From NCBI GenBank assembly GCA_022826885.1, contig JAJDUB010000068.1, positions 1 through 64,000 of the forward strand: a stretch of 64,000 nucleotides of DNA, read 5' to 3'. Source of the DNA: Gammaproteobacteria bacterium. GTDB taxonomy: Bacteria; Pseudomonadota; Gammaproteobacteria; Eutrophobiales; Eutrophobiaceae. Positions 3,943-45,837 of this stretch are shown piece by piece; the stretch's first letter is position 1; every line of letters begins with the position of its first letter. Position numbers and translations under genes: made by a program. Below the pieces are notes generated by a model that was not told the origin of the DNA, made no database searches, and was given only the letters and a program-made list of their open reading frames with translations.

Positions 3943-3985
3943 GGGGTCAGAGTAAAAATTCTACCGAATTTCTTACTCTGACCCC
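3943..3985. repeat. GGGGTCAGAGTAA palindromic repeat, copy 1
   Basis: ggggtcagagtaaaaattctaccgaatttcttactctgacccc. Confidence 0.9.
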
Positions 3986-22095: not shown

Positions 22096-22137
22096 GGGGT
22101 CAGAGTAAAAATTCTTCGAATTTCTTACTCTGACCCC
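22096..22137. repeat. Palindromic repeat, copy 5 (doublet 1, unit A)
   Basis: ggggtcagagtaaaaattcttcgaatttcttactctgacccc. Confidence 0.92.
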
Positions 22138-22159
22138 GAGATATCCGGATAAAACCAGC

Positions 22160-22202
22160 GGGGTCAGAGTAAGAATTTCGCCAGAAATTTTACTCTGACC
22201 CC
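22160..22202. repeat. Palindromic repeat, copy 6 (doublet 1, unit B)
   Basis: ggggtcagagtaagaatttcgccagaaattttactctgacccc; 22-nt spacer from unit A. Confidence 0.92.
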
Positions 22203-22545: not shown

Positions 22546-23802
22546 ATGGGGGTAAACATGTCCGATTATGTCACACACACCTTGCCTGACGTGAGCTTGA
22601 CGGATCACTTGCGCGGGATACTGGATCAACTGGATGAGTCCAATGTCGAATTGAGGGACTGCCTTTCCATGCCGCCGGCGGTGTATACCTCCGAGGAATG
22701 GTTCGAGTTCGAGAGACGGGCCGTCTGGGACCGGGAATGGATCTGTGTAGGGCACATCGGCACCATCCCCAAGCCGGGAGATTATGTTTCCGTCACGATC
22801 AATGAAGACCCGCTGCTCGTACAGCGCAAAGACGACGGCGGCGTACGCGTCATGTCCGCCGTATGCCAGCACCGCGGCCATGTGCTGGGTGAGGAAACAG
22901 GCAATACCCGTGTCTTTACCTGTCCCTTTCATGGCTGGTCCTACGATGAAACCGGCAAGCTGGTCAGCGCCCCGGAAATGGATGCCCATGTCAGCCTGGG
23001 TGAATTACAGGAAAAATACTGCCTGCCCGTGCTGCGTACTGAAGTGTGGAACGGTTTTATCTTCATCAACATGGACGGCACGGCCAAACCCCTGGCGCCG
23101 CGCCTGAAACGTCTCACAAAGGAAATAGAAAACCATAATCTTGCCGAGATGGGAGGTGTACCTACGGTGGACTGGGGGCCAAGTCCGTGGAACTGGAAGT
23201 TCATGCACGAGAATGCCATCGAACCCCACCACACCTGGTACCTGCACAAGGGGCCCCATGACTTTGCCCCTTCCAAGCTGGCCACGTTTGCCGAATGGGA
23301 CGACTTCGATGACGGCGCCATATACCATCCCACCGGTTTCCTGGAACTGGACGGCAATTTTACCGCTGCATTTCATTGCCTGTTCCCGATCATCGAGGGG
23401 TTGACCGAAAACGAACGCAAGCGGGTGATGTTTGCCTGTATCCTGCCAAACCTGTTCTTCGGCTGTGTGCCTGACGGTTGTTTCTATTACTGCATCCTGC
23501 CCCAGGGCGCCAATGCCATGACCATCCGGGTCGGTTTTATCTATCCCAAATCGACCCTGCGGATGGATAATTTCGATATTATTTTCAAATCCGTCGTCAT
23601 GGGTCTGGAAACACTGAACGACCAGGATACCGGCGCCAATACCGCCGTTCACAAAGGGCTGCGCTCACGTTTTGCGCCACGGGGTCGTTACGCGCCGAAA
23701 GAAGCGACGTTGCCGCAATTCAACCGCTGGCTGATCACCCGTTACAAGGCCTATGCGGCGGAGCTGGAGGGACGCAAGCAAAGAACCAGGCAAGTAGCTT
23801 GA
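22546..23802 (+). CDS. Rieske-type aromatic ring-hydroxylating oxygenase, alpha subunit
   Basis: CQHRGHVLGEETGNTRVFTCPFHGW Rieske motif; NWKFMHENAIEPHHTWYLHKG mononuclear iron region. Confidence 0.93.
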   Translation: MGVNMSDYVTHTLPDVSLTDHLRGILDQLDESNVELRDCLSMPPAVYTSEEWFEFERRAVWDREWICVGHIGTIPKPGDYVSVTINEDPLLVQRKDDGGVRVMSAVCQHRGHVLGEETGNTRVFTCPFHGWSYDETGKLVSAPEMDAHVSLGELQEKYCLPVLRTEVWNGFIFINMDGTAKPLAPRLKRLTKEIENHNLAEMGGVPTVDWGPSPWNWKFMHENAIEPHHTWYLHKGPHDFAPSKLATFAEWDDFDDGAIYHPTGFLELDGNFTAAFHCLFPIIEGLTENERKRVMFACILPNLFFGCVPDGCFYYCILPQGANAMTIRVGFIYPKSTLRMDNFDIIFKSVVMGLETLNDQDTGANTAVHKGLRSRFAPRGRYAPKEATLPQFNRWLITRYKAYAAELEGRKQRTRQVA

Positions 23803-23820: not shown

Positions 23821-23862
23821 GGGGTCAGAGTAAAAATTCTTCGAATTTCTTACTCTGACCCC
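23821..23862. repeat. Palindromic repeat, copy 7 (doublet 2, unit A)
   Basis: Identical over 42 nt to 22096-22137. Confidence 0.92.
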
Positions 23863-23885
23863 GAGGTATACAGGTAAAACTATGG

Positions 23886-23928
23886 GGGGTCGGAGTAAGA
23901 ATTTCGTCAGAAATTTTACTCTGACCCC
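23886..23928. repeat. Palindromic repeat, copy 8 (doublet 2, unit B)
   Basis: ggggtcggagtaagaatttcgtcagaaattttactctgacccc; 2 mismatches to 22160-22202. Confidence 0.92.
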
Positions 23929-23948: not shown

Positions 23949-24701
23949 ATGAGCAATGAACTTGCAGAAATCAAGGGACTGCTGGAAAAACTGGATGCAA
24001 AACTGAACCGCCTGGAGGATGTGGAGGCAATACAGCGCCTGATCGTGACTTATGCCCGCGGCTGTGATCGGGGCAACGACCCGGAAATCATCGGCCCCTG
24101 TTTTGCCGAAGACGGCACCTGGGAGTGCAAGGGTTTCGGCAAGTACCACGGCCGGGACCGACTGGCAAAAGGATTGCACGGGATTGCCGGCGAGAAAATC
24201 TGGTGGTCGTTGCACTACATGATCTCTCCACTGATCGATATCGCCCCGGACGGCCGGACTGCGACCGTATTCTGGTACCTGTGGGAATCGGCAACCGTGC
24301 CCAACCCACATACCGACGAAGCGGAATCACACTGGATCGGCGGCACCTATGACTGCGAGTGCGTAAAACAGGACGGGCGCTGGCTGTTCCGGTCCATGGA
24401 GTTGAAGCTGAACATGGTGAGTCCCTACGACGACGGCTGGGTAAAGGCCAAATTCCTCGATGGCAGCCGCAACTCCCCGTACCTGATGAACCTGGAGCAG
24501 GGCGAGTATTACTGGTGCGCCTGCGGCCGCTCGAAAAATCAGCCATTCTGCGACGGTTCCCACAAGGAGACAAGGCGTGAGCCGCTGAAGTTCACACTGG
24601 ATGACTTCCGGCACGTGGCCTTGTGCGGTTGCAAATACTCGAAAACCAAACCCTGGTGCGACGGCTCGCATTTGAAACTGAACCTGGACCAGGGTTCTTG
24701 A
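23949..24701 (+). CDS. NTF2/SnoaL-like domain fused to two C-terminal CDGSH iron-sulfur motifs
   Basis: N-terminal VEAIQRLIVTYARGCDRGNDPEIIGPCFAEDGTWE...; C-terminal CACGRSKNQPFCDGSH and CGCKYSKTKPWCDGSH, both matching CxC-x2-S-x3-P-x-CDGSH. Confidence 0.9.
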   Translation: MSNELAEIKGLLEKLDAKLNRLEDVEAIQRLIVTYARGCDRGNDPEIIGPCFAEDGTWECKGFGKYHGRDRLAKGLHGIAGEKIWWSLHYMISPLIDIAPDGRTATVFWYLWESATVPNPHTDEAESHWIGGTYDCECVKQDGRWLFRSMELKLNMVSPYDDGWVKAKFLDGSRNSPYLMNLEQGEYYWCACGRSKNQPFCDGSHKETRREPLKFTLDDFRHVALCGCKYSKTKPWCDGSHLKLNLDQGS

Positions 24702-24704
24702 TTC

Positions 24705-26345
24705 ATGGTAACGAGAAGAGATTTTCTGAAATCGTCGTTCCTGGCTGCCGGCGCGCCCCTGGCCGCTCGCAGCGCCGGAACGGAAGACTTTCCTGAGAAA
24801 CCTCTTCCCGGAACCCTGACGCCTGCCGAATACAACCAGGCCGTTGCGGAATTGCGCGAGGCAGTCGGCGACCGATGGGTGTTTACCGATGATGAAACGG
24901 AACTGAGGACGTACCGGGACGTCTATTCAACCACGCCCGATGAAGCGCACATGCCGGCCGCCGCGGTCGCGCCCAGGACGGTTGAAGAGATACAGGCCAT
25001 CCTCAGGATAGCGCGGGATTACCGCATCCCCCTCTGGACCATCTCCACCGGCAAGAATTATGCCTACGGCGGGCCGGCGCCGATGAAACCGGGCTATTTC
25101 GTCCTCGATTTGAACCGCATGAAGCGTATTATCGAAGTGAACGAAGAGCACGGCTATGCGGTGGTCGAACCGGGGGTAAGCTATTTTGAGCTGTATAATT
25201 ACCTGCAACGGCGCGGCAGCAAACTCTGGATAGACCCCGCGGCCCCGGGCTGGGGAAGCGTCCTGGGTAACCTTTCCGAACACGGCGCGGGTTACACCCC
25301 TTACGGTGATCACCTGCTGATGAATTGCGGCATGCAGGTGGTGCTAGCGGACGGCACCGTGGTCGATACCGGCATGGGCGCGTTATCCGGTTCCGCCACT
25401 TCAAGCCTGTACAAGTACGGTTGCGGGCCATGGGTCGAGGGTATGTTTACCCAGTCGAATTTCGGCATCATTACCAAAGTCGGCATCTGGCTGATGCCGG
25501 AACCGCCCGGCTACCGGCCGTACCTGGTGACTTTCCCGCGGGAGGATGACCTCTACCAGATCACTGAGGTGGTCGGTCCCCTGCGACTCAACATGTTGAT
25601 ACCCAATGCGGCGACCACGGTGGGCCTGATCTGGGAGGCGGCGCCCAATGTAACCAGGAAGCAGTATTACAACGGAAAAGGCCCCATGCCCATGCGCCAC
25701 CGTCAGCAGATGGCGGAGGACCTGAACATCGGCATGTGGAATTTCTACGGCGCCCTGTACGGGCCGGAACCGATCATGGACAACAACTGGAAAGTCCTTG
25801 AAGAAGCCTTTCGCAGCATTCCCGGCGCCAGGTTTTTCTTCGAAGGGGACCGGCCCGGCGATCCGGCCTGGCGCTACCGGGTCAAGCTCATGAGCGGCGT
25901 GCCGAACATGACCGAGTTCAGCCTGATGAACTGGGTAGGCAGCGGCGCGCACATCGATTTCTCGCCCCGTTCGCCGGTAACCGGTGAAGATTCGATGAGG
26001 CAGTTCACCCTGATCAGGGACAGGGCGAACGAATACGGGTTCGATTATATCGGTGAATTCCTGGTGGGCTGGCGGGAACTTTTAAATATCTTCCAACTGG
26101 TATTCGACCGCCTGAACGATGATGAACGGCGCCGCGCCCATGAGTGTTTCGGCCACCTTGTCAATGATTTTGCCGAGCACGGTTATGGTGAATATCGCAC
26201 CCATCTCGATTTTATGGACCAGATCGCCGGCACCTACAACTGGAATGACGGGGCGCTGTGGAAACTGCATCACCGGCTGAAGCAGGCGCTGGACCCTGTG
26301 GGCATCCTGTCTCCGGGCAAGAGCGGCATCTGGCCGGTGGCGTGA
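24705..26345 (+). CDS. FAD-linked oxidase of VAO/p-cresol methylhydroxylase family, Tat signal
   Basis: Tat motif TRRDFLKSS; PLWTISTGKNYAYGGPAP, YAVVEPGVSYFELYNYL, GYTPYGDHLLMNCGMQVVLADG; followed by a c-type cytochrome gene. Confidence 0.88.
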   Translation: MVTRRDFLKSSFLAAGAPLAARSAGTEDFPEKPLPGTLTPAEYNQAVAELREAVGDRWVFTDDETELRTYRDVYSTTPDEAHMPAAAVAPRTVEEIQAILRIARDYRIPLWTISTGKNYAYGGPAPMKPGYFVLDLNRMKRIIEVNEEHGYAVVEPGVSYFELYNYLQRRGSKLWIDPAAPGWGSVLGNLSEHGAGYTPYGDHLLMNCGMQVVLADGTVVDTGMGALSGSATSSLYKYGCGPWVEGMFTQSNFGIITKVGIWLMPEPPGYRPYLVTFPREDDLYQITEVVGPLRLNMLIPNAATTVGLIWEAAPNVTRKQYYNGKGPMPMRHRQQMAEDLNIGMWNFYGALYGPEPIMDNNWKVLEEAFRSIPGARFFFEGDRPGDPAWRYRVKLMSGVPNMTEFSLMNWVGSGAHIDFSPRSPVTGEDSMRQFTLIRDRANEYGFDYIGEFLVGWRELLNIFQLVFDRLNDDERRRAHECFGHLVNDFAEHGYGEYRTHLDFMDQIAGTYNWNDGALWKLHHRLKQALDPVGILSPGKSGIWPVA

Positions 26346-26348
26346 GAG

Positions 26349-26747
26349 ATGTGCGACCTGACCCCATATATTTCACTGTTCTATGCGGCGTGTCTGCTAA
26401 CGCTGCCGGCCGGTTGTGGCGATAACGGGTCGGCAGGGAGAGGAAATGCGGCGCAGGTAGCCGGCAGCGCCGACGCGCCGGTCGACATCCATGACGGCAA
26501 AACCTTGTACGAGTTGTACTGCATTGCCTGCCACGACCAGGGACCGGGCCATCCGGGGACCATGCGCCTGCAGGAGAGAGTCGGTGAGGAACAGGCGGCC
26601 CTGCTGGACCGGGAGAACCTTCCGCCGGAATATATAAAACTGGTGGTGCGGGAAGGGTTCAAACTGATGCCGCCTTTCCGCCACAGTGAGATCTCCGACA
26701 GGCAACTGGATGAACTGGCAGCCTATATCACGGGAGAGGCTGACTGA
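26349..26747 (+). CDS. c-type cytochrome, candidate PchC-like subunit of flavocytochrome
   Basis: Heme motif CIACH, later Met in FKLMPPF; exported N-terminus; 3-nt gap to the flavoprotein. Confidence 0.85.
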   Translation: MCDLTPYISLFYAACLLTLPAGCGDNGSAGRGNAAQVAGSADAPVDIHDGKTLYELYCIACHDQGPGHPGTMRLQERVGEEQAALLDRENLPPEYIKLVVREGFKLMPPFRHSEISDRQLDELAAYITGEAD

Positions 26748-28231
26748 TGGATATGGAAACGGTCACCTTGTCGGCCGAGGCCCGGGCGGTAGCCGAGCGC
26801 ATCCGGAATTTACGCGATTATCTCGAGTTGCTGGCCGAACACGGCCAGTGCATCACCTGGCCCGAAACCGTGCTGCCTGAACCCGATATACGTAAGGTTG
26901 TCGTCGCGGCGGGCCGCGACGCCATGGCCGGGCCGGCTATCGTGTTCGACAATATCCGTGGTTATCCCGGCAAGAGACTGGTAATAGGGGTGCACGGCAG
27001 TTTTTCCAATATAGCCCTGCTGCTGGGCAAACCGAAAGGAACCAGCATCAAGGAACTGTTCTACGAACTGGCGGGTCGTTGGGGATCCGACAAACCGTTG
27101 ATAAACAGGGTGAAACCGGATGACGCACCAGTGCACGAAAACAGGGTTGAAGCGGATATAAACCTGTATGACATGTTGCCGTTGTACCGCATCAATGCCC
27201 TGGATGGCGGTTTTTATATCGCCAAGGCCAATATCGTCAGCCGCGACCCCCGCGACCCGGATAATTTTGCCAAGCAGAACGTGGGGATTTACCGTATCCA
27301 GGTCCAGGGACCGGACAAGTTCACCTTGTTGTCCGTTCCGTCCCACGATATGGCGCAACAGATACGCATGGCGGAACAGGACGATGTCCCGCTGAAGATC
27401 GCAGTGATGCTCGGTAACCACCCGGCCATGGCCATGTTTGCCGCCACCCCCGTCAATTACGATGAATCGGAATTTGCCTATGCTTCGCAGATGATGGGCA
27501 GCCCTATAGACCTCACCCAGTCCGGCAACGGCCTGGATGTTCTTGCCGGCGCAGAAATGGTAATAGAAGCAGAATTGCTCAATAACAAGCGCTGCCTGGA
27601 AGGGCCGTTCGGAGAGTTCCCGGGTAGTTACAGCGGTATTCGTCATGTTCCCCTGTTCCGGGTGACTGCCGTTTCTCACCGCACCGACCCCATCTTTGAA
27701 AGTATTTACATCGGTAAGGGCTGGACCGAACACGATACGTTAATCGGGCTGAGCACCTGTGCCCCCATTTATGCCCAGTTAAAGGAGAACTTCCCGGAAG
27801 TTGTCGCGGTGAACGCCCTGTACCAGCATGGTCTGACCGGGATCATTTCAGTGAAAAACCGGTTTGCCGGCTTCGCCAAGTCGGTAGCAATGCGGGCCCT
27901 GGGGACGCCCCACGGTCTGATGTACCTGAAAAACCTCATCATGGTGGATGACGACGTCGATCCCTTCGATCTCAACCAGGTCATGTGGGCTTTGTCCACG
28001 CGCACCCGCGCCAGCGATATTATCGTGATTCCGAATATGCCCATGGTTATTATCGACCCGGCCGCGGAGATTCCGGGGAAGGGCCATCGCCTGATCATCG
28101 ATGCCACCAGCTTCATGCCCCCCGATCCCATCGGTGGTGATGCAAAGATCGTTTCACCGCCCACAGGTCCTGAAATTGATGACCTGGCAAAGTATATTCT
28201 ACGGCTGCAGAAAGAGGCGGAAGGCCGATGA
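26747..28231 (+). CDS. UbiD family (prFMN-dependent) decarboxylase, paralog 1
   Basis: EGPFGE pair; NVGIYRIQVQGPDKF; AVMLGNHPA; TGATG overlap with the cytochrome gene. Confidence 0.92.
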   Translation: MDMETVTLSAEARAVAERIRNLRDYLELLAEHGQCITWPETVLPEPDIRKVVVAAGRDAMAGPAIVFDNIRGYPGKRLVIGVHGSFSNIALLLGKPKGTSIKELFYELAGRWGSDKPLINRVKPDDAPVHENRVEADINLYDMLPLYRINALDGGFYIAKANIVSRDPRDPDNFAKQNVGIYRIQVQGPDKFTLLSVPSHDMAQQIRMAEQDDVPLKIAVMLGNHPAMAMFAATPVNYDESEFAYASQMMGSPIDLTQSGNGLDVLAGAEMVIEAELLNNKRCLEGPFGEFPGSYSGIRHVPLFRVTAVSHRTDPIFESIYIGKGWTEHDTLIGLSTCAPIYAQLKENFPEVVAVNALYQHGLTGIISVKNRFAGFAKSVAMRALGTPHGLMYLKNLIMVDDDVDPFDLNQVMWALSTRTRASDIIVIPNMPMVIIDPAAEIPGKGHRLIIDATSFMPPDPIGGDAKIVSPPTGPEIDDLAKYILRLQKEAEGR

Positions 28232-28461
28232 ACTGTCCACGGTGCAACTCAGCGCAGGAACACCTGCGCACCGAATACCAGGGTAGGGAAGGGGACGAAC
28301 TGGTCTGGACCGTATTTTACTGCCGGCGCTGTTCGTTCACCTGGCGTGACAGCGAGCCTGCAGAATCGATAGATTATGCTGAGCGGGAAGCCTGGTTCCG
28401 CGCCGACCCGGACCATCCGGAAAAGTACAAACACAACATACCGCCGGCGGATGGGAATTAG
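28228..28461 (+). CDS. VdcD/BsdD-like zinc-ribbon decarboxylase accessory subunit, copy 1
   Basis: CPRCNSAQ...VFYCRRCSFTWRDSEPAESIDYAEREAWFRADPDHPEKYKHNIPP; ATGA overlap with ubiD-like gene. Confidence 0.8.
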   Translation: MNCPRCNSAQEHLRTEYQGREGDELVWTVFYCRRCSFTWRDSEPAESIDYAEREAWFRADPDHPEKYKHNIPPADGN

Positions 28462-28462
28462 G

Positions 28463-29902
28463 ATGTCAAAAATATTGATCAATAAATTGAGGAAAGAACT
28501 GGGCAGGGACGCTGTTTTGTCCGGCGCCGGCGCCATTGCCGGGGGCGGATATGCGCGGGCCGGCAGAACGCCGGTCGGCGTGGCGCTTCCGGAAGACATT
28601 GACCAGTTGCGGACGATACTGTCCATTGCCTCTGAAAACAATGTATCGTTGTGGGTCCTGCCCAATACGGCCGCAAACGGAGGCATGGCCGGTCCGGCAA
28701 CGGACAGGGATATCCTGGTCATCGATCAATCCCGCATGAACAGGATTGTAGAGGTCAACGTCAAGGGCGCTTACGCCCTGGTGGAACCGGGTGTCAGTTA
28801 TATACAACTGAATGACTACCTGGAAGAAAACAACACCGGCCTGTGGGTTGACTGCGACAGGAACGGACTGAATTCGGTCTCCGGCAGCGTCACCGCAAGA
28901 GAGTTCGGCTATACCGCCTACGGGGACCACACCATGATGCAGTGTGGTATGGAAATCATGCTGGCTGATGGTGAGCTGGTGCGCCTGGGGATGGGCGCCA
29001 TGCCGAAGAGCAATACCTGGCAACTGGCAAAGTACGCGTACGGTCCTTATCTCGACGGCCTGTTTACGCAGTCCGGCCTGGGTATCGTAACCAAAATGGG
29101 CGTATGGCTGATGCCGGCCCCGCCGGCGTATCAGCCCTTTGCAGTGACCCTGAAGGGCGACAGCGATCTTGCCCAGGCCATCGAGATATTGCGCTCTTTC
29201 AAGGTCAACGTCATCATTCCCAATACGGTAGTAATCAGCAACACGGTACTGGACGCAGCGCCTTTTGCGTCACGAGATGATTTTACCGACGGCATGGAGG
29301 TCGATACCGCGCGCCTGGCTGCCTGGCACGGCCTGGGTCAGTGGACCCTGTACGGCGCCTTGTATAACACACCACCGAACGTCGATGTGCTGTGGTCCAT
29401 GATGCGCAGTGCCTTCGCCGGAATCGAGGGCGCTACGGTACTTGACCTGAAAACCCAGGCGGCCAACCCGGTACTGTCCGGCAGGGAGTCGATGATGCGC
29501 GGACGTCCCTCGAAGGAATTCAGCAACCTCGGCAACTGGTCCGGCGATGCTTACCTGTATGCCGGGTTTGTCTCCCCTATTGACGGGCGGCAAGTGTTGA
29601 AGGTGAATAAACTGGCAGGCGATACGGTGCGCGCCGCCGGTTTCGATTACCTGGCGGAATACGCGGTCGGCTGGCGCTCCGTTATCCAGCGGGTGTACCT
29701 GCCGTATCAGTCCGGGTCCGAACCCAGGGCCGCCGCGTGTCTTGGTGAGTTGATCGAATCGATGGCTGAGCGGGGCCACGGTGTGAGCCATATCAGCGCC
29801 GGCTACCTGGACAAGGCCCTGGCAAGCTATGACAACGCGGGCATGGCCGAACTGCGCAGCAGGCTCAAACAGGCCCTGGATCCCGGCAAACTGTTTGCCT
29901 GA
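28463..29902 (+). CDS. FAD-linked oxidase of VAO/PCMH family, paralog 2 without Tat signal
   Basis: YALVEPGVSYIQLNDYLEEN, GYTAYGDHTMMQCGMEIMLADGELV; start at ATG 28463 (or 28451), not 28376. Confidence 0.85.
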   Translation: MSKILINKLRKELGRDAVLSGAGAIAGGGYARAGRTPVGVALPEDIDQLRTILSIASENNVSLWVLPNTAANGGMAGPATDRDILVIDQSRMNRIVEVNVKGAYALVEPGVSYIQLNDYLEENNTGLWVDCDRNGLNSVSGSVTAREFGYTAYGDHTMMQCGMEIMLADGELVRLGMGAMPKSNTWQLAKYAYGPYLDGLFTQSGLGIVTKMGVWLMPAPPAYQPFAVTLKGDSDLAQAIEILRSFKVNVIIPNTVVISNTVLDAAPFASRDDFTDGMEVDTARLAAWHGLGQWTLYGALYNTPPNVDVLWSMMRSAFAGIEGATVLDLKTQAANPVLSGRESMMRGRPSKEFSNLGNWSGDAYLYAGFVSPIDGRQVLKVNKLAGDTVRAAGFDYLAEYAVGWRSVIQRVYLPYQSGSEPRAAACLGELIESMAERGHGVSHISAGYLDKALASYDNAGMAELRSRLKQALDPGKLFA

Positions 29903-29928: not shown

Positions 29929-29955
29929 TTGACATGGTTGCTACCAGTTGCTACC
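29929..29955 (+). promoter_or_regulatory. TTGACA -35-like hexamer plus two GTTGCTACC direct repeats (29937-29945, 29947-29955), candidate TA operator
   Basis: 10-bp periodic direct repeat just upstream of antitoxin ATG 29965; -10 is weak. Confidence 0.5.
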
Positions 29956-29964
29956 TTATTGAGT

Positions 29965-30258
29965 ATGAGATCAGTCGGAATAAAAGTGCTTAATAATCGT
30001 TTGAGTGAGTATGTCAGGCTGGCTGCGGCAGGTGAGACCGTGCTTGTCACGGACCGTGATCGGGTGGTTGCCGAAATTGTTCCCCCCAGCGCAGCCAGGA
30101 GTCCGGTTTTGGCTGATGCCATGCTTGCGGAAGCGGTGCGCAAAGGCTGGTTAACACCGCCAGCGTTGGCAGGCATCGGTGGACCACCAGAACCCGTGCC
30201 CGTCGCGCCACTACACGACCTACTGGACGAGTTGGATAGTGACCGAAACGAGCGGTGA
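29965..30258 (+). CDS. Phd/YefM-type antitoxin
   Basis: MRSVGIKVLNNRLSEYVRLAAAGETVLVTDRDRVVAEIVPP. Confidence 0.85.
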   Translation: MRSVGIKVLNNRLSEYVRLAAAGETVLVTDRDRVVAEIVPPSAARSPVLADAMLAEAVRKGWLTPPALAGIGGPPEPVPVAPLHDLLDELDSDRNER

Positions 30259-30641
30259 TTTATCTTGACACCTCTGTTGCGCTTGCCCAGTTATTGGCCG
30301 AGGACCGGCGTCCACCTGCTTCACTCTGGAATGAAACGCTTGTAAGCAGTCGATTACTGGAATATGAACTCTGGAACCGGCTTCATGCGCGATCGCTGGC
30401 TGCTTCTCATGGCGAAGCGGCGTATCAACTCATCGGCCGAATTGCATTATTGGAGCTTTCATCCCCTGTTCTGGCACGTGCGCTGAACGCTTTCCCCGCG
30501 CCGGTGCGTACATTGGATGCCCTGCACCTGGCATCGTGTGAATACTTATACAAGTCAGCGCAGCCTGTTACGCTGGCGAGCTACGATCAACGTATGCTCA
30601 ACGTTGCCGGGGCCATGGACCTACCTGTCCTGGACCTGTAA
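30255..30641 (+). CDS. PIN-domain (VapC-like) toxin
   Basis: GTG start overlapping antitoxin stop; MIYLDTSVALAQLL, LLEYEL, TLDALHLAS. Confidence 0.87.
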   Translation: MIYLDTSVALAQLLAEDRRPPASLWNETLVSSRLLEYELWNRLHARSLAASHGEAAYQLIGRIALLELSSPVLARALNAFPAPVRTLDALHLASCEYLYKSAQPVTLASYDQRMLNVAGAMDLPVLDL

Positions 30642-30687: not shown

Positions 30688-31257
30688 TCAGGCCTTGACC
30701 CCGGCCCAGCGTTTTACTATGCCGGGGTCGATATCGAACAGGTCCAGCGCCCGGCCGACACTGGCGTTGATGATATCGTCAAGGGTCTGCGGCCTGTTAT
30801 AGAAAGCCGGAGTGGGTGGCGCAATGATTGCCCCGAGCAGCGATACGTCATAAAACAGTTTGCAGTGCCCCGTATGCAACGGAGTCTCGCGGGGCATGAT
30901 CACCAGGCGCCGGCGCTCCTTGAGCACTACGTCGGCAGCTCGCACCAGCAGGTTCTCGGCATAGGAATGAGTGATTGCAGAGAGAGTGCGCATGGAACAG
31001 GGGGCGACTATCATGCCGTCGGTCCTGAAGGAACCGCTGGAAATGCTGGCAGCGATGTCCTTGATATTGTGCGTCACGTCCGCCAAAGCCTCTATGCCGG
31101 CAACGGTGTGATCCGTTTCAATGCCGATATTGAGCTTGGCCGCGTTGGTCATCACCAGGTGGGTTTCGATATCCGGCATTTCAGCCAGCACTTCGACCAG
31201 GCGGATGCCGTAAGGCAGGCCGCTGGCGCCGGACATGCCGATAATTATGCGTTTCAT
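30688..31257 (-). CDS. UbiX family flavin prenyltransferase
   Basis: MKRIIIGMSGASGLPYGIRLVEVL; APCSMRTLSAITHSYAENLLVRAADVVLKERRRLVIMPRETPLH; start at 31257. Confidence 0.93.
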   Translation of the reverse strand: MKRIIIGMSGASGLPYGIRLVEVLAEMPDIETHLVMTNAAKLNIGIETDHTVAGIEALADVTHNIKDIAASISSGSFRTDGMIVAPCSMRTLSAITHSYAENLLVRAADVVLKERRRLVIMPRETPLHTGHCKLFYDVSLLGAIIAPPTPAFYNRPQTLDDIINASVGRALDLFDIDPGIVKRWAGVKA

Positions 31258-31426
31258 GGAGGCTCCGGTTTCCGGTTTCAGGTTGTTTCTAGAATATTCA
31301 CAAAAACCGGACAAAATCAAATACAAAATTTCCCACAAATTGGAAGATGTATACTATACTTAATATTTGAGGATACGTTTTCTGCATTTAACATAACCCA
31401 ACATATATCGAAGGGGGAGATTTTCG

Positions 31427-42376: not shown

Positions 42377-42419
42377 GCAAGGTCAACGCCATGCTATGCT
42401 TGCTGCGCACCACCCTGCA

Positions 42420-43943
42420 ATGACATCCAAACGCAAGCCGACCCTGTCCCCGGAAGCCATCGCCGTCGGCCGGCGTATCAAGGGGTTGCGGGAGTTCCTT
42501 GCACTGCTCGATGAGAACGGCCAACTGGCGGTCTGGGAGGAGGAAGTCCTACCGGAGCCGGATATCCGCAACATTTCCGTAGCCGCAGGCCGCGATGCCA
42601 TGCATGGACCGGCCGTGCTGCTCACCAACATCAAGGGTTACCCCGGCAAACAGGTCGTGGTAGGGGTGCACGGCAGTTTCACCAACCTGGCCCTGCTGAT
42701 GGGGCGCCCGAAGGGGACGTCGGTGAAGGAGTTGTTCTACGAAATGATCAACCGCTGGGGCAGTGATGAACCGTTAATCGAGCGGGTACCCCCGGCCCGG
42801 GCGCCGGCACTTGCCAACCGGGTCGAGAACGGCATCAACCTGTACGCACTGCTGCCCCTGTACCGCATCAACGAGTATGACGGCGGGTTTTATATCGACA
42901 AGGCCAACGTGGTAAGCCGGGACCCGTCGGACCCGGAGGACTTCGGCAAGCAGAACGTGGGCATCTACCGGATACAGGTACATGGGCCTGATATGTTCAG
43001 TCTGGATGCGGTGCCGTCCCATGACATGGGCCAGCACATACGGATTGCTGAGCGGGAGAATGCTGACCTGAACATCGCCGTGATGATCGGCAACCATCCT
43101 GCCCTGGCGATGTTTGCGGGGACGCCGGTGGACTACGATGAATCGGAATATGCGTATGCCTCGCAGATGATGGGGGCGCCGTTGCAGTTGACTACATCCG
43201 GCAACGGCCTTGACATCCTGGCCAACTCGGAGATGGTCATTGAGGCGACGATGGTCAACAGGGAGCGTATCCTTGAAGGGCCGTTCGGTGAGTACCCCGG
43301 CACTTACGGCGCCGTGCGCAGGCTGAATGTATTCAGGGTGACGTCCGTATCCTTCCGGGACGACCCTATCTTCGAGAGTCTGTACATCGGCAGCAAGAGC
43401 TGGACGGAGCACGACACGCTTCTGGGGATTAATGTCTGTACGACGGTGTATAACCAGTTGAAACAGAATTTCCCTGAAGTCATTGCCGTTAATGCTTTAT
43501 ACCAGGACGGGACGACTGCGGTCATTGCGGTGAAGAACCGTTTTGCCGGCTTTGCCAAATCCGTTGCCCTGCGGGCGCTCGGTTCTCCTCACGGGCTGTT
43601 GTTCCTGAAAAACCTCATCATGGTCGATGCCGACATCGACCCGTTTGACCTGAACCAGGTCATCTGGTCGTTGTCCAACCGCACCCGGGCTGATGACATC
43701 ATCGTATTGCCCAACATGCCGCTCAGTGATGCCGACCCGTCAGCGGAGATCGGGGGCAAAGGCCACCGCCTGATTATCGATGCCACTTCCTATATGCCGC
43801 CCGACAAAATTTCCGTGAACAATAACCTTGTTGAATCACCGGCCGGTCCGGTAATTGACGAACTGGAAAGAATTATTAATAAGCTGCGAAACGGAAACCC
43901 TGTATTCCGTCATTCCTGCGAAAGCAGGAATCCAGTAGAATAA
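42420..43943 (+). CDS. UbiD family decarboxylase, paralog 2 (start 42420 or 42396)
   Basis: EGPFGEYPGTYGA, QNVGIYRIQVHGPDMF; strongly similar to paralog 1; C-terminus runs into a repeat. Confidence 0.92.
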   Translation: MTSKRKPTLSPEAIAVGRRIKGLREFLALLDENGQLAVWEEEVLPEPDIRNISVAAGRDAMHGPAVLLTNIKGYPGKQVVVGVHGSFTNLALLMGRPKGTSVKELFYEMINRWGSDEPLIERVPPARAPALANRVENGINLYALLPLYRINEYDGGFYIDKANVVSRDPSDPEDFGKQNVGIYRIQVHGPDMFSLDAVPSHDMGQHIRIAERENADLNIAVMIGNHPALAMFAGTPVDYDESEYAYASQMMGAPLQLTTSGNGLDILANSEMVIEATMVNRERILEGPFGEYPGTYGAVRRLNVFRVTSVSFRDDPIFESLYIGSKSWTEHDTLLGINVCTTVYNQLKQNFPEVIAVNALYQDGTTAVIAVKNRFAGFAKSVALRALGSPHGLLFLKNLIMVDADIDPFDLNQVIWSLSNRTRADDIIVLPNMPLSDADPSAEIGGKGHRLIIDATSYMPPDKISVNNNLVESPAGPVIDELERIINKLRNGNPVFRHSCESRNPVE

Positions 43944-44991: not shown

Positions 44992-45837
44992 TTACTTCAA
45001 TTCGGGCCAGATGACCCATCCGGAAGCGGAACGCCAGGCATAACTGTCGCAATAACCCAATACATCGGCGGGTCCCCTGGTCGAGGCGAGTACCACGAAC
45101 CAGGCAATCAACTCCGCCGTGCCGCCGGAACCAGCTTCTTCCATGCGCTCCAGTGTGCATTTCTCCATCAGCTTGCGGTGATCGCCCTCGGCGAGACAAT
45201 CCAGGAACATGCGGTCGAATTCTTCATCGATATAAAAGTAACGGGGTCCGCCCGGCTCATGGGACAGGCCGCCGGAGCCGATCAATGCGATACGTTCATC
45301 ACCCGGATAACTGTTGAGCACGTCGCGGATGACGTGCCCTACCTGGTAGGCCCGTTCCGGCGTCGGGATAGGGGGCACGGTACAGTTCATGGTAATGGGT
45401 ATGATGGGTATGTTCATATCCGGATTGAGATACTTGGTGGGGGTGGATATCCCGTCATCGAACTGCATGTCTTCCTGGATGTAGGCCAGTTGCAAACCAT
45501 GCCTGGCCGCTTCATTGACGATGTAACGGGCCAGTTTTGAGTTCCCCGGCACATGATATTTTTCATGCTGTGCCAGCCAGGTTTGGTACCAGTCGGCCGG
45601 GCCACTGTGTTGGTCGGCAATACCGACCGTGTATTCCGGCGTGTTGCTCAGCGGCCAGTTGAGCAGGTGATCGTTGGCAAAGATGATCAATACATCGGGC
45701 TTCGCCGCGTCGAGATGGTCCCGCATTTTTTTGAATGAAGCCAGCGCGGTCTGTTGCTGATGTTCCGGCGCATCCTCAAACCAGCCCAGCAGGCCCGGCG
45801 TATGTGTCGAGGCTACGGCAGCAACGATCTCAGCCAT
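44992..45837 (-). CDS. LigB-type class III extradiol dioxygenase, beta subunit
   Basis: MAEIVAAVASTHTPG, VLIIFANDHLLNW, ALIGSGGLSHEPGGPRYFYIDEEFDR. Confidence 0.88.
   Translation of the reverse strand: MAEIVAAVASTHTPGLLGWFEDAPEHQQQTALASFKKMRDHLDAAKPDVLIIFANDHLLNWPLSNTPEYTVGIADQHSGPADWYQTWLAQHEKYHVPGNSKLARYIVNEAARHGLQLAYIQEDMQFDDGISTPTKYLNPDMNIPIIPITMNCTVPPIPTPERAYQVGHVIRDVLNSYPGDERIALIGSGGLSHEPGGPRYFYIDEEFDRMFLDCLAEGDHRKLMEKCTLERMEEAGSGGTAELIAWFVVLASTRGPADVLGYCDSYAWRSASGWVIWPELK

Follow-up and report, generated by a model that had tools for sequence, protein, structure and literature searches.

In the Rieske oxygenase systems known to us so far, the electron carriers are Rieske-type or plant-type ferredoxins. 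The Rieske clusters of the oxygenases themselves have potentials of about -100 to -150 mV. Many Rieske alpha subunits form homotrimers, for which no beta subunit is needed, and in the alpha3beta3 systems, such as biphenyl and naphthalene dioxygenase, the alpha gene adjoins a gene for a protein of the NTF2 fold.

The physiological role of bacterial tandem CDGSH (NEET) proteins is, to our knowledge, largely open, and ideas about it come mostly from human mitoNEET and CISD3. In CISD3, exchange of the histidine ligand for cysteine blocks cluster transfer. The type-6 CDGSH proteins are characterized, in the survey by Lin et al. (2011, PMC3174974), by two C-X-C-X2-S/T-X3-P-X-C-D-G-S-H motifs located about 20 residues apart. 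The two clusters of CISD3 are cooperative, and the protein shows redox activity with a potential of about -31 mV (PMC10937110). Moreover, NEET clusters are labile and can be handed to acceptors in vitro (PMC10937110, PMC6006223). A precedent for the fusion of such a module with a redox enzyme is provided by the type-5 proteins, in which, according to PMC3174974, a type-6 module is joined to a glutamate synthase FMN domain.

The NTF2 family also includes enzymes of aromatic catabolism. LdpA, a cofactor-free aromatic C-gamma-formaldehyde lyase, belongs to it together with PcfL (PMC12997858, PMC11323797; PDB 8abt-8abw).

The gene described here lies in a stretch of 64,000 nucleotides of a gammaproteobacterial contig (JAJDUB010000068.1), referred to below as the window, and its product combines an NTF2-like domain with a tandem CDGSH module (Table 1). 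The open reading frame is stop-free inside and has exact limits. Pfam assigns SnoaL_4 (PF13577; E 1.4e-24, 86.9 bits against a cut-off of 24) to the N-terminal part and zf-CDGSH, in two stretches (E 9.3e-21), to the C-terminal part, with no further domain at E <= 1e-3; PHROGs and Rfam searches gave no match. The sequence-only reading had placed an NTF2-like domain and tandem CDGSH motifs in one frame, with exact CxC-x2-S-x3-P-x-CDGSH matches in both motifs and a Rieske oxygenase alpha gene alongside. Pfam and a motif scan agree with it on each of these points, and the scan detected no CDGSH motifs in the window besides CACGRSKNQPFCDGSH and CGCKYSKTKPWCDGSH. A structure model of the fusion based on 49 sequences (mean pLDDT 88.7, pTM 0.68) superseded an earlier one based on nine (pLDDT 67.6). 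In this model, pLDDT is mostly above 85 in the NTF2 part and mostly 85-94 in the CDGSH part, with a weak linker between them. Both domains are thus well formed in the model, while their relative placing is not fixed, because the pTM of 0.68 and the weak linker do not allow it to be read.

Table 1. The fusion gene, its parts and the surrounding genes in the window.
Feature	Position	Strand	Basis
Rieske oxygenase alpha subunit, 418 aa, with CQH-x16-CPFH and iron-site motif NAIEPHHTWYLH	22546..23802	+	Pfam, motifs
REP-like palindrome doublet in the 146 bp that separate the alpha and fusion genes	23821..23928	.	Sequence comparison with relatives
SnoaL_4–tandem CDGSH fusion protein, 250 aa	23949..24701	+	ORF, Pfam, homologous loci
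SnoaL_4 (NTF2-like) domain, residues 21-150, with LdpA-type Tyr35, Asp40, His89	24009..24398	+	Pfam, conservation, LdpA alignment, model
Linker, residues 161-177, low model confidence	24429..24479	+	pLDDT 60-74 in blocks 161-180
First CDGSH motif CACGRSKNQPFCDGSH, residues 190-205	24516..24563	+	Exact motif match, invariant ligands
Second CDGSH motif CGCKYSKTKPWCDGSH, residues 226-241, 20 residues past the first	24624..24671	+	Type-6 spacing
FAD-linked oxidase (FAD_binding_4 + FAD-oxidase_C), same operon	24705..26345	+	Pfam; kept in A-type clusters
Small c-type cytochrome (Cytochrome_CBB3)	26349..26747	+	Pfam 4.9e-16; conserved
UbiD-family decarboxylase, VdcC-like	26747..28231	+	NCBIfam NF041204, 665 bits vs cut-off 650; conserved
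Second FAD-linked oxidase, start codon uncertain	28376..29902	+	FAD_binding_4 2.7e-21
UbiX-family flavin prenyltransferase	30688..31338	-	NCBIfam PRK06029, 257 bits, over cut-off

The C-terminal part is, by its sequence, a type-6 tandem CDGSH module resembling CISD3 and MmCISD. Its two motifs show the spacing of this type, and its closest solved relatives are MmCISD (3tbn; E 3.1e-23) and CISD3 (E 1.3e-18), and in these proteins, too, a single chain carries both motifs at a distance of about 20 residues, with all ligands present. The eight ligands (C190, C192, C201, H205, C226, C228, C237 and H241) show no variation in an alignment of 26 tandem modules, and the pair is predicted to bind two [2Fe-2S] clusters. 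Unlike MmCISD and CISD3, the module sits behind a SnoaL_4 domain, and cluster binding is a prediction here. It also differs from the type-5 proteins (PMC3174974), which have another partner domain and carry the CDGSH module at the N-terminus rather than the C-terminus.

Free-standing tandem CDGSH proteins of 78-80 residues are common in the family, so the fusion unites two proteins that also exist apart. In several genomes, the free-standing CDGSH gene of the genus lies no more than about 20 bp from a gene for an HsaA/HpaH-like flavin monooxygenase, and in some genomes a homotrimeric Rieske oxygenase is convergent to this pair. For instance, at L037:3191-4645 (G000:C1) the CDGSH gene is 9 bp upstream of the monooxygenase gene, with the homotrimeric oxygenase convergent to the pair, which recurs in the genus. 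Another tandem CDGSH module forms the N-terminal part of a 354-residue protein (L091:4042-5106, G010:C38), whose long C-terminal part looks cupin-like by eye.

The sequence-only reading had regarded the NTF2-like part as a merged beta subunit. This idea is weakened, as it is supported neither by family assignment nor by structure. Ring_hydroxyl_B (PF00866) is not matched by the domain at E <= 1e-3, and nine other genes of the same genome, the true beta genes, match it above the cut-off. A profile comparison (hhalign) of the SnoaL_4 domains with these nine beta subunits gave 13% identity and a probability of 89, values as would be expected for two branches of one superfamily. The best fold matches of the model are NTF2 enzymes, and the best solved relatives by sequence and fold are LdpA, then BaiE (a bile-acid dehydratase), LinA and scytalone-dehydratase-like proteins; no beta subunit occurs among the best 50 structural matches of the domain. 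These best matches are catalytic and share the same Tyr/Asp/His set. Compared with the alpha3beta3 systems, the fusion has SnoaL_4 instead of Ring_hydroxyl_B, and CDGSH instead of a Rieske-type or plant-type ferredoxin.

LdpA and PcfL, the closest solved NTF2 structures, share with the fusion an association with aromatic catabolism and the aligned catalytic residues. In 34 aligned SnoaL_4 domains, Tyr35 is kept in 30, Asp40 in 32 and His89 in all; they align with the Tyr, Asp and His97 of LdpA, and His89 falls on the residue mutated in 8abu (H97Q). Identity to LdpA is about 25%, however, and the LdpA structures have no CDGSH module. Since these three residues are general in SnoaL_4, they do not prove LdpA lyase activity. 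Conservation of Asp and His was dropped as a disproof of a beta role, because the true beta subunits of the genome keep similar residues; for the same reason the triad supports a catalytic pocket and does not prove it. Only Tyr35 and the HMM assignment set the domain apart from beta subunits.

The neighbouring alpha gene encodes both Rieske (1.1e-20) and Ring_hydroxyl_A (1.6e-24) domains by Pfam, with the Rieske CxH-x16-CxxH motif and the catalytic domain PF00848. Its nearest solved relatives are the alpha subunit of benzene/biphenyl dioxygenase and carnitine monooxygenase. The gap separating it from the fusion gene, occupied by REP-like palindromes also in locus L027, shrinks to 23 bp in L029 and 14 bp in L030, both of which are free of the REP insert; with gaps of 14-23 bp in relatives, the two genes are most likely co-transcribed. 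The window contains eight complete copies of the REP-like palindrome (GGGGTCAGAGTAA...TTACTCTGACCCC), among others at 22096-22202 and 23821-23928 and at 3943, 5646, 12733 and 19002. Its doublets flank the alpha gene on both sides, one of them between alpha and fusion.

Downstream, the fusion, FAD oxidase, cytochrome c and UbiD genes follow each other almost without gaps. The second FAD-linked oxidase is conserved in the A-type clusters (see below) whose flanks are long enough, and UbiX flavin prenyltransferases are the usual suppliers of cofactor to UbiD enzymes. Between this oxidase and the UbiX gene, a VapBC-like toxin-antitoxin pair can be recognized by sequence at 29929-30641. A complex I gene cluster makes up the upstream part of the window, and the downstream part contains more catabolic genes. 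Among these, inspection of the sequence revealed a second UbiD-like gene (42396-43943) and a LigB-like extradiol dioxygenase gene (44992-45837), so that much of the right half of the window represents an aromatic catabolic region.

The linkage between fusion and oxygenase is recurrent. Of the 53 genomes of the order, those with a full-length fusion are six of the seven that belong to the genus and one from a different genus in the family; none was found in the others. None of 398 other genomes sampled from the phylum contained it, and the matches there covered the CDGSH part only. When 84,980 species were scanned for close relatives, seven fusion loci emerged. Two of these, L032 and L033, are 60-61% identical and come from outside the family; the metagenome-assembled genome with L033 was labelled Myxococcota by the tree tool. 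The fusions form two paralogous lines with 55% identity, A (that of the window) and B (represented by G000:C82). The comparison covered the window and seven other A-type loci together with four B-type loci.

In 8/8 A-type loci, the fusion gene has a Rieske alpha gene as its direct neighbour, which in seven of them is orthologous to the alpha of the window. In the remaining locus (L031), the direct neighbour is a second Rieske alpha, with the orthologue further upstream, beyond two small genes. Three of the four B-type loci have an adjacent alpha, located downstream in two of them and upstream in divergent orientation in one; the fourth, which begins 94 bases from the end of a contig, was left out of the adjacency count. 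Adjacency thus holds in 11/11 testable loci, across genera and in more than one gene order, and the linkage is strong and not a matter of chance. Recurrence was the test by which the sequence-only reading proposed to be refuted, and its expectation stands. Moreover, A-type neighbourhoods keep the cluster alpha / fusion / FAD oxidase / cytochrome c / UbiD. Because the pairing recurs, the fusion protein is probably a dedicated helper of the adjacent oxygenase.

The pairing is not obligatory for every related alpha. Alpha homologues of the same clades without an adjacent fusion occur at G002:C36 (52% identical to the window's alpha), G002:C21, G005:C99, G000:C10 and G010:C112, the first two being the clearest cases. 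G002:C21 (L078) is syntenic with G000:C82 (L036), with a 105-residue ORF, the alpha gene and RidA in order and the fusion gene missing; the difference amounts to a natural deletion or insertion. Two adjoining ORFs of 292 and 303 aa without Pfam match precede the B-type fusion on its upstream side (L036:4333-6074) and are present at G002:C21 as well. Three genomes (G000, G002, G005) possess two B-clade alphas each and one B-type fusion each, located beside either alpha clade, as if one shared carrier served both. Several Rieske alpha genes of the C73 type are each followed by a gene for a conserved protein of about 105-123 residues that has no Pfam match (L065:7601-7972, L080, L081, L083) and is possibly an unrecognised small partner.

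SnoaL_4 genes of the same subfamily that are free of CDGSH are located between other Rieske alpha genes in the genus, and they also adjoin Rieske alphas on Novosphingobium plasmid pABRDHK22 and Acinetobacter plasmid pYH12138-1. This indicates that the linkage of SnoaL_4 to Rieske oxygenases is wider than the CDGSH fusion. The plasmid SnoaL_4 domains are about 34-41% identical to that of the window. On the Novosphingobium plasmid, the order is alpha, hypothetical gene, SnoaL_4 and Rieske ferredoxin, suggesting that CDGSH may stand in for the ferredoxin in the fusion. These systems differ in the lack of CDGSH, in the separate ferredoxin, and in operon and alpha clade; the Novosphingobium alpha is about 21% identical.

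Redox partners were considered genome-wide. Neither a Rieske-type nor a plant-type ferredoxin was found in a motif scan of the window, whose other Fe-S motifs are of the 4Fe-4S kind in the complex I cluster, and the fusion protein has CDGSH motifs only, with no Rieske or Fer2 cluster motif. The absence of ferredoxin and reductase genes, to which the sequence-only reading had appealed, is real for the window, but the argument drawn from it fails, as such partners are few and unlinked throughout the genome. The genome (94.6% complete) encodes about 26 Rieske oxygenases. On contigs other than that of the window, it also encodes one BphA4-type reductase (PF14759; G000:C38:14562), two PF00175 (NAD_binding_1) reductases, which by sequence and neighbours are PaaE-like (phenylacetate) and phenol-hydroxylase-like, and three to four small Rieske ferredoxins, one of them at C73:30990. 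With three reductases and three to four ferredoxins against about 26 oxygenases, this absence was dropped as evidence; it says little because the shared ferredoxins and reductase sit on other contigs. In Sphingobium yanoikuyae B1, many oxygenases share one donor system (PMC1847435).

The explanation that we favour, tentatively and with somewhat less than even confidence, is that the fusion is an accessory protein in two parts, belonging to a Rieske oxygenase module within an operon for aromatic catabolism, with CDGSH as carrier. The CDGSH pair, with two [2Fe-2S] clusters, would act as a local electron carrier, passing electrons from the shared reductase of the cell to the neighbouring alpha or, in trans, to a close alpha paralogue. 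The SnoaL_4 domain would not be a conventional beta subunit; it would keep a substrate pocket and act on the substrate or product of the oxygenase in a lyase, dehydratase or isomerase step. Given its FAD oxidases, cytochrome c and UbiD decarboxylase, the operon would serve to break down a phenolic compound.

A doubtful but serious alternative is that SnoaL_4 is an LdpA-like cofactor-free lyase or dehydratase and CDGSH a redox sensor or stabiliser, the oxygenase being served by a shared ferredoxin and the BphA4-type reductase. LdpA, BaiE and LinA as best structural and sequence matches, conserved Tyr35, Asp40 and His89, free-standing SnoaL_4 without CDGSH beside other Rieske alphas, and shared redox partners elsewhere in the genome, as in the donor sharing reported in PMC1847435, all speak for it. 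It leaves unexplained, however, two complete and invariant cluster sites that have been kept as long as the pairing with alpha. We regard as unlikely the model of the sequence-only reading, in which the NTF2 domain replaces beta in an alpha3beta3 hexamer and brings the electron-transfer centres with it. The common superfold with its distant similarity to the beta subunits of the genome (hhalign probability 89), the constant adjacency to alpha, and the location of 0/9 PF00866 genes on the contigs of the window or the C82 fusion are consistent with this model. The missing PF00866 match, the best 50 structural matches being free of beta subunits, the conserved catalytic-type Tyr35 and the closely related alphas that have no adjacent fusion argue against it, and homotrimeric alphas, as is generally known, do without beta.

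Donation of [2Fe-2S] clusters by the CDGSH module to the oxidation-prone Rieske site of alpha, or repair of that site, as NEET proteins can do with apo-acceptors, is improbable. The in vitro transfer of labile NEET clusters (PMC10937110, PMC6006223) and the linkage of the fusion to a protein requiring a 2Fe-2S cluster fit this idea, but most of the approximately 26 other oxygenases of the genome do without such an adjacent gene; nothing specific speaks against it. Chance adjacency of functionally unrelated genes is scarcely credible: with about 26 Rieske oxygenase genes in one genome single adjacencies occur, yet it is seen at every one of the 11 loci that could be tested, which span two paralogous lines and more than one phylum, and a rough calculation with 26 alphas in about 3,300 genes gives two independent adjacencies a probability of about 2.5e-4.

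Returning to the two-part accessory protein, the SnoaL_4 protein with its tethered 2Fe-2S module is probably an electron carrier, and electron carriage by CDGSH is the most attractive reading of these sequences. An oxygenase-linked redox role is suggested by the Novosphingobium gene order, the shared B-type fusion and the pairs of CDGSH and monooxygenase genes. Evidence counting against the carrier function comes from the alphas without adjacent fusion, from the ordinary ferredoxins and BphA4-type reductase of the genome, and from the potential of CISD3, which at about -31 mV is more positive than is usual for the Rieske clusters of oxygenases, so that electrons would have to be delivered uphill if the potential were not tuned. 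It is rather unlikely, in our estimate, that a NEET-type tandem CDGSH in an NTF2-fold partner subunit serves as the dedicated electron carrier of a Rieske oxygenase. If true, this would be without precedent in two respects, as an oxygenase that receives its electrons from 3Cys-1His clusters and as a partner subunit with its own electron-transfer centres.

The combination of SnoaL_4 with tandem CDGSH appears to be a new domain architecture. Surveys of CDGSH architectures (PMC3174974, PMC5859297) describe other fusions and, in their accessible parts, do not mention this one, in keeping with the earlier suggestion of a possibly undescribed arrangement. In a literature search of partial coverage, no paper joined CDGSH with a Rieske oxygenase or with SnoaL. 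Because the CDGSH module is fused to one protein and tied genetically to one enzyme, it offers a testable partner. If the fusion feeds the oxygenase, it would represent a third type of electron carrier for Rieske systems and could be useful in building compact oxygenases. If it acts instead as a sensor or donates clusters, a CDGSH module from bacteria would nonetheless be connected with a defined catabolic enzyme.
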